Source of the DNA: an uncultured Pelagibacteraceae bacterium
GTDB lineage: Bacteria > Pseudomonadota > Alphaproteobacteria > Pelagibacterales > Pelagibacteraceae
Length of the DNA: 60,000 nt
Assembly (NCBI GenBank): GCA_902588835.1
Contig: CACIQQ010000006.1
Coordinates: forward strand, 1-60,000
Reading direction: 5' to 3'
The first letter of the stretch is position 1; every line of letters starts with the position of its first letter. Of the stretch, positions 10,433-14,692 are shown piece by piece. The notes under the pieces were generated by a model that worked only from the letters and a program-made list of their open reading frames with translations, ran no database searches and was not told the origin of the DNA. A program made the translations under genes and the position numbers.

Positions 10433-10507
10433 TGGTGCCCTCGATGAGAATCTAACTCATGACTGACCCTTACCAAGGGCCTGTTTTAACACTAAAACTA
10501 CAAGGGC
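10433..10507 (-). tRNA. tRNA-Thr (GGU anticodon)
   Basis: Folds as a cloverleaf on the minus strand. Acceptor GCCCTTG pairs with CGAGGGC, the anticodon stem GGCCC/GGGTC closes loop TTGGTAA (anticodon GGT), and T stem ATGAG/CTCAT. Discriminator A and an encoded CCA follow. Two oddities: the D stem is AU-only apart from one pair and may have five pairs, and the T loop reads TTAGATT, so position 56 is A instead of the near-invariant C. The base in the position of G19 is T, so the 19-56 pair may be U-A. Confidence 0.88.
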
Positions 10508-14400: not shown

Positions 14401-14616
14401 TTGTCAAAACAAGACTCTTTAGAATTTAAAGGAAAGGTAATAGACCTTTTGCCCAATGCAATGTTTAGGGTCAAATTAGAAAATAATCACATTGTTACAG
14501 CGCATACAGCTGGAAAATTAAGAAAAAACAGAATTAGAGTTTTGCAGGGAGACAATGTTACTGTAGAAGTAACTCCATATGATCTTACAAAGGGTCGTAT
14601 AACATTTAGATTTTAA
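14401..14616 (+). CDS. infA: Translation initiation factor IF-1
   Basis: A 71-residue OB-fold protein that binds the ribosomal A site during initiation. [33 protein letters not shown] and the ending KGRITFRF match IF-1 throughout. The start is TTG: alignment to E. coli IF-1 is collinear from this codon, and no ATG or GTG lies nearby in frame. It begins 2 bases after hisD, and tRNA-Phe begins one base after its stop. Confidence 0.96.
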
Positions 14617-14617
14617 T

Positions 14618-14692
14618 GGCCTTGTAGCTCAGTAGTAGAGCAGTACCCTGAAAAGGTATGTGTCGTAAGTGCGATTCTTACCAAGGCCACCA
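14618..14692 (+). tRNA. tRNA-Phe (GAA anticodon)
   Basis: A complete cloverleaf with encoded CCA. Acceptor GGCCTTG/CAAGGCC, D stem GCTC/GAGC, anticodon stem GTACC/GGTAT with loop CTGAAAA (GAA), T stem GTAAG/CTTAC. The T loop reads TGCGATT, so position 55 is G where U (pseudouridine) is almost universal. The D loop AGTAGTA has A at position 18 instead of G. The 18-55 contact therefore appears to be A-G, while 19-56 stays G-C. It lies one base after infA, so it is probably processed out of a shared transcript. Confidence 0.95.

Follow-up and report, generated by a model that had tools for sequence, protein, structure and literature searches.

The tRNA-Phe gene and its elbow

The window, by which we mean the whole stretch of 60,000 nucleotides analysed, derives from a SAR11 (Pelagibacteraceae) bacterium and carries three tRNA genes. 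One of these encodes a tRNA-Phe and lies immediately behind infA. The features of this region are:

14401..14616, plus strand: infA, presumably encoding translation initiation factor IF-1 (product named from its sequence); stop codon 1 nt ahead of tRNA-Phe
14618..14692, plus strand: tRNA-Phe(GAA), CCA encoded (ARAGORN and Rfam RF00005)
14631..14637, plus strand: D loop AGUAGUA, 7 nt, with A18 at 14634 and G19 at 14635 (sequence, pattern match from 14634)
14670..14676, plus strand: T loop UGCGAUU, with U54 at 14670, G55 at 14671, C56 at 14672, G57 at 14673 and A58 at 14674

Residues are numbered after Sprinzl. Cloverleaf, anticodon (GAA, 14650-14652) and CCA end are those of an elongator tRNA-Phe. 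All stems pair, and the RF00005 score (68 bits, from a match that stops at 14689, short of the CCA) is the highest among the three tRNAs of the window. The gene shares with canonical bacterial tRNA-Phe (RF00005) the cloverleaf, the GAA anticodon, the CCA, and the G19-C56 and U54-A58 contacts, and retains a purine at position 57. It differs in having A18-G55 in place of G18-Psi55, a 7-nt D loop, and no possible Psi55. The register is set by C56, which requires a G as position 19; position 18 is therefore A, and position 55 is G. The D loop is 1 base shorter than the loop AGUUGGUA of canonical relatives. The sequence-only reading had reported A18 and G55 in an otherwise intact tRNA-Phe cloverleaf, and sequence, ARAGORN and Rfam agree in confirming this.

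G18 and Psi55 are commonly treated as invariant. The available portion of PMC7912444 calls U55 conserved and Psi55 universally conserved. The same gene body recurs at 19 loci in further records or genomes; the most frequent other A18/G55 version of tRNA-Phe was found at 29 loci, some genomes being perhaps present in both source sets. Because of this recurrence, chance or an assembly slip is excluded.

The genome of the window (G000) measures 967 kb in 25 contigs and is 86.6% complete. It features 23 tRNA matches, and ARAGORN reads these loci as 23 tRNAs, 1 of which is a tRNA-Phe. No second tRNA-Phe, canonical or otherwise, was found in this 86.6% complete assembly. In the relative G078, whose genome is complete (100%, a single contig), 32 tRNA matches were obtained, all of which were read, Leu and Thr among them; its single tRNA-Phe carries A18/G55, as do 3 of the 32 tRNAs in all (Phe, Thr-GGU and Val-GAC). 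The gene of the window does not look like a pseudogene either, as its stems are unbroken and no intact paralogue was found in the assembly (86.6% complete). It is very likely the sole tRNA-Phe of its bacterium, and its presence in single copy argues that the tRNA is charged with phenylalanine and used in translation.

tRNA-Phe versions behind infA

Repertoires of tRNA-Phe genes were compared at 110 infA loci, 80 of which are the best 80 of a longer infA list and come from named genomes, and 30 are additional; genomes may overlap between the two sets. A tRNA-Phe gene resides within 100 nt behind infA in all 110 loci, and the gap measures 1-9 nt among the 80 loci listed. Position 55 is G in 62 loci and U in 48. 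The U55 genes, which the sequence-only reading would have taken as a sign of assembly error, do exist, but they are clearly different versions residing in the same slot. At least 6 clearly distinct tRNA-Phe versions occupy the slot. On a tree of MurA, HisD, HisS and Dcd (73 rows, 72 loci plus the window) the state of position 55 changes at least 4 times, and at least 7 times on a tree of HisD only (111 rows). Some of these switches look like replacements of the whole tRNA-Phe gene rather than two point mutations; locus L089 adjoins L082 on the tree, yet its tRNA-Phe is wholly different.

U55 is found in the tRNA-Phe of the sister family f159 and of the genera g5, g9 and g12, wherever tRNA-Phe was listed or read, and G18/U55 is for this reason very likely the older state. 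A18/G55 marks the tRNA-Phe of all 3 g2 genomes read.

A further tRNA-Phe behind infA, with the T loop UUCGUUU, was observed at eight loci (L045, L054, L068, L069, L075, L089, L097, L099). This version lacks A58, and has no A21 as parsed.

Coupling of positions 18 and 55

The two substitutions had been viewed as compensation rather than decay. SAR11 tRNAs support this view, as A18 and G55 occur jointly or not at all in the loci read. Coupling was analysed in 131 distinct tRNA bodies, obtained from 231 loci unselected for 18/55; four of the loci (L595, L596, L597, L601) belong to other Alphaproteobacteria, as do the rpsO loci L607, L608 and L611, which were omitted. All 131 tRNAs obey the same rule: U55-C56 is accompanied by GG in the D loop (107 tRNAs), G55-C56 by AG (21), and U55-A56 by GU (3). 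The covariation is strict, with 21 A18/G55 tRNAs and no mixed combination of 18 and 55 among the 131 (Fisher p = 1.6e-24; the calculation uses distinct sequences, whose shared descent makes them non-independent). By isotype, these 21 distinct A18/G55 tRNAs comprise 11 Phe, 5 Thr, 4 His and 1 Val. Missing intermediates suggest that single changes at 18 or 55 are costly.

Generic tRNA patterns, which demand U20 and an encoded CCA and hence undercount, were searched in 101 genomes of the genus. A18/G55 gave 48 matches in 46 genomes, sorted by anticodon loop into 41 Phe and 7 Thr. A18/U55 gave no match in the same 101 genomes, and G18/G55 one, judged by eye not to be a tRNA. In another scan at least 210 of 300 genomes matched, and only the G18/U55 and A18/G55 pairings were seen by eye among the matches listed.

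Independent contrasts on the tree of the four flanking proteins give the same picture. Positions 18 and 55 change together in 4/4 contrasts for Phe, 2/2 for Thr and 2/2 for His (pooled 8/8, p ~0.008; no single tRNA family is significant). The contrasts include whole-gene replacements, and thus do not prove two successive mutations. Two tRNA-His genes show the swap relative to a fairly near relation: the tRNA-His of L109 differs from that of the window at 12 residues, and that of G009 from that of G005 also at 12; both 18 and 55 are included in each case.

A rule of this kind has reportedly been described by Doyon, Zagryadskaya, Chen and Steinberg (J Mol Biol 2004), who are said to have found a "specific purine trap" in suppressor tRNAs selected from a laboratory library. 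In that rule, a purine at 18 is held between the U54-A58 pair and a purine at 57, and is G if residue 55 is U, A if residue 55 is G. The tRNA-Phe of the window fits the rule, having A18/G55 and keeping both U54-A58 and a purine at 57. The 18/55 part of the rule holds in 21/21 distinct G55 tRNAs, the Val one having A54 and U58. In contrast to the library tRNAs, the tRNA described here is natural, probably the only tRNA-Phe of its cell, and recurrent across a clade.

Other elbow variants

A second type of altered contact is probably present in another tRNA of the window:

10433..10507, minus strand: tRNA-Thr(GGU), T loop UUAGAUU, D loop UAGUGUUA (ARAGORN, Rfam)

The D arm of this tRNA is odd and U-rich. 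The simplest reading is that U19-A56 probably replaces G19-C56, the register of the D arm being less sure. A56 and a GU D loop co-occur in 7/7 tree contrasts (p = 0.016).

Several very different tRNA-Thr versions reside at roughly the same place in relatives. In six loci (L076, L092, L101, L103, L104, L108) the tRNA-Thr(GGU) features the T loop GUCAGUA, where G54 and G58 replace the U54-A58 pair. The tRNA-Val(GAC) of L567 (G078), with T loop AGCGUAA, combines A18-G55 with A54 and U58, and it is possible that its 54-58 pair has been swapped too.

A18/G55 tRNAs in viral contigs and outside the genus

Viral contigs of IMG/VR were scanned with patterns for the four 18/55 combinations, reading the first 80 loci per scan (at least 120 stretches matched). 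Matches inside called tRNAs were 127/135 for G18/U55, 51/83 for A18/G55, 14/80 for A18/U55 and 0/80 for G18/G55. By eye, a GG lies upstream in 10 of the 14 A18/U55 matches, where the matched A is thus a residue other than 18; the remaining 4 are without a clear GG. The phage A18/G55 isotypes include Met, Gly, Asn, Gln, Phe, Trp, Ala and Pro.

A strict count was made on 240 loci of the A18/G55, G18/G55 and A18/U55 scans, where 333 of 582 distinct bodies could be classified; 58 pattern matches and 191 bodies outside the D-loop rule were omitted, and 25 further calls were unparsed. G55-C56 is accompanied by AG in 31/32 tRNAs, U55-C56 by GG in 284/290, U55-U56 by GA in 7/8, and U55-A56 by GU in 2/2; one G55-A56 tRNA has no fitting D loop. 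A looser count retrieved 45 G55-C56 tRNAs with AG, the exceptions being 2 G55 tRNAs with AGG, 2 G55 tRNAs without AG, and 4 U55 tRNAs with AG and no GG. These figures suggest that 18-55 and 19-56 mostly act as exchangeable pairs in phage tRNAs.

The swap is a minority state in phage tRNAs, since only 6 of the 386 framed tRNAs retrieved by the canonical scan have G55-C56 (77 others are without the G53-C61 frame, and one of the 6 lies in a contig also matched by the A18/G55 scan). Pieces of three named phages contain 12 called tRNAs, all U55 and none G55, and A18/G55 has therefore been seen so far in viral contigs and not in a named phage. U55 is found in a Xanthomonas phage tRNA-Phe and in the tRNA-Met of phage D3, which shares 85% identity with an A18/G55 tRNA-Met from a viral contig. 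A stretch taken from the A18/G55 tRNA-Thr has no exact match in viral_contigs. Uncalled stretches of four viral contigs (L182, L191, L215, L221) feature the T loop UGCGAAU, hence G55, and by eye look like 3' ends of tmRNAs.

A class-wide search of 289 genomes was carried out with the pattern AGTA..GTGC, which detects a tRNA only if it has U20, lacks 20a and encodes its CCA, and thus undercounts. Six genomes matched, 2 of them from the SAR11 genus. G655 has an A18/G55 tRNA-Met, the only called one outside SAR11 in this sample, located in a Pro-Met-Trp cluster resembling a phage array. The match in G845 falls in a tRNA-like stretch where no tRNA was called, and those in G642 and G693 were taken by eye for chance. 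The genus g9 (L623, L624) carries an A18/G55 tRNA-His, with D loop AGUUAGUUA and T loop UGCAACU, which escaped the class-wide pattern because of its AGUUA motif. Given the undercount, we make no claim that, phages apart, A18/G55 is confined to SAR11.

The proposed A18-G55 contact

We are confident that the gene of the window encodes a working tRNA-Phe, very likely the sole one of this SAR11 bacterium, in which A18-G55 takes the place of the G18-U55 elbow contact. From the coupling we read A18-G55 as a compensating pair, which would preserve the L-shape of a working tRNA. A18 would occupy the place of G18 between the purine at 57 and A58, and pair with G55. With G19-C56 and U54-A58 kept, shape and translation are expected to be normal; the outer pair, G19-C56, which usually serves as the docking face, would be unchanged, Phe codons would be decoded normally, and position 55 would remain unmodified. 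Rapid translocation is said to depend on the 18-55 pair (Pan et al. 2006).

Departures from the usual elbow are also found in metazoan mitochondria, where tRNAs without an elbow have been described (PMC4810234, from the portion available). These tRNAs lose the contact; in the SAR11 tRNA-Phe the contact is rewritten and presumably kept.

Loss of TruB and origin of the swap

The sequence-only reading had named U55 as the target of TruB. TruB is indeed the pseudouridine-55 synthase, but the point is moot here, as the Pfam domain TruB_N was found in none of 61 genomes of the genus, those of the window and the complete G078 included, nor in any of the 10 genus genomes at least 90% complete; all 14 control genomes were positive. 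With no TruB detected in the genome of the window, Psi55 would be expected in this organism only if some other enzyme produced it.

In a set of 40 chosen genomes TruB_N was found in f159 (7/8, the miss being 79% complete), g9 (2/2), g5 (2/2), g12 (3/3) and other Alphaproteobacteria (6/6), and was not found in g1 (11/11), g2 (3/3), g4 (3/3), g3 (1/1) and g10 (1/1). The neighbourhood of rpsO was read at 16 loci, 3 of them from outside the order, with infB and rbfA identified by eye. The order rbfA-truB-rpsO is present in 5/5 TruB-bearing genomes of the order. Genes are arranged as infB-rbfA-rpsO, without truB, in 8/8 TruB-less genomes, where rbfA lies within 12 nt of rpsO or overlaps it; these are L613 (the genome of the window), L615-L618 and L620-L622, from the genera g1, g2 and g4. 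The simplest account is that truB was lost once, in the ancestor of g1, g2 and g4.

One explanation makes this loss the cause of the swap: without Psi55, selection on U55 would weaken, and elbow pairs would drift as compensated swaps. The distribution of TruB_N fits in part, as it is found in f159 (7/8) and in g5, g9 and g12 (7/7), which have U55 in tRNA-Phe where read, and gave no match in g1 or g2, where G55 is present, nor in g3, g4 and g10. Loss and swap are, however, not in step, as 48/110 genus loci keep U55 in tRNA-Phe, and g9 combines TruB with an A18/G55 tRNA-His, so that TruB loss is not required for the swap and was dropped as a necessary cause. A18/G55 tRNAs also occur in phage contigs from many samples (contigs read without their hosts). 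Mycoplasma genitalium and M. pneumoniae, too, lack TruB (PMC4014445, available part); these Mollicutes likewise have reduced genomes without the Psi55 synthase, and no A18/G55 swap is mentioned in that part of the source. As the cause of the swap, TruB loss is a real possibility that we consider on balance doubtful. Under the preferred reading of a compensating A18-G55 pair, the ancestral loss of the synthase may have eased giving up U55. The frequency of the swap in SAR11 could plausibly stem from relaxation following TruB loss, from frequent tRNA gene replacement, or from the two acting together.

Replacement could also account for the swap as such, if an entire A18/G55 gene came in from a phage or some other cell and displaced the native tRNA-Phe, the pair having arisen elsewhere. 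The multiplicity of versions in the slot behind infA (at least 6) points in this direction, as do the many A18/G55 isotypes of phage contigs and the phage-array-like setting of the lone called A18/G55 tRNA outside SAR11 (6/289 genomes matched). Sequence comparisons speak against import: the AGGAGUA version is exactly the commonest canonical SAR11 version in the 3' side of the D stem, the anticodon arm and the variable loop; the SAR11-type Phe anticodon arm has 0 exact matches in viral_contigs; and the 10 INPHARED records spanning at least 80% of the window tRNA-Phe are 73-78% identical to it, the one read being canonical. We therefore hold import to be unlikely. Selection to evade a reader of the elbow, such as a nuclease, a toxin or a phage factor, could explain the recurrence of the swap among phage tRNAs and across several isotypes of SAR11, but only 3/32 tRNAs of the complete G078 carry it, and this explanation seems improbable. 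Although two of the most conserved tRNA bases are changed, a decayed gene, a pseudogene or an assembly error is hardly credible, with intact stems, no other copy found, and the recurrence of this body (19 other loci) and of another A18/G55 version (29 loci).

Setting these alternatives aside, the compensated A18-G55 contact may be part of a broader phenomenon. The dominant SAR11 lineage, having lost truB, may rewrite the elbow freely, with A18-G55 (Phe, Thr, Val, His) and U19-A56 (Thr) as exchangeable solutions, and phages sharing the code; we advance this tentatively, as a conjecture with slightly less than even chances.

Significance

If this conjecture of a freely rewritten elbow is correct, some of the most abundant organisms of the ocean would read all Phe codons with an elbow different from the one that textbooks call invariant. 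A natural clade with a seemingly single and essential tRNA that relies on another pair, with canonical relatives residing in the same slot, and with the modifying enzyme gone, is a ready-made experiment on the purpose of the elbow pair and of Psi55. Neither natural A18-G55 tRNAs nor TruB loss in SAR11 were found reported in titles and the first part of abstracts, which is weak evidence, as few subscription papers were covered. Filters demanding G18 and U55 would throw out genuine tRNAs, from phages as well as from abundant marine bacteria. A study of SAR11 tRNAs states, in the portion available, that sequences with unusual secondary structures were removed (PMC3937112).

The stop codon of infA and the mature 5' end of tRNA-Phe are separated by 1 nt (14614-14618). 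The two genes are perhaps carried by one transcript. If so, the RNase P cut would yield an infA mRNA that terminates at the stop codon.
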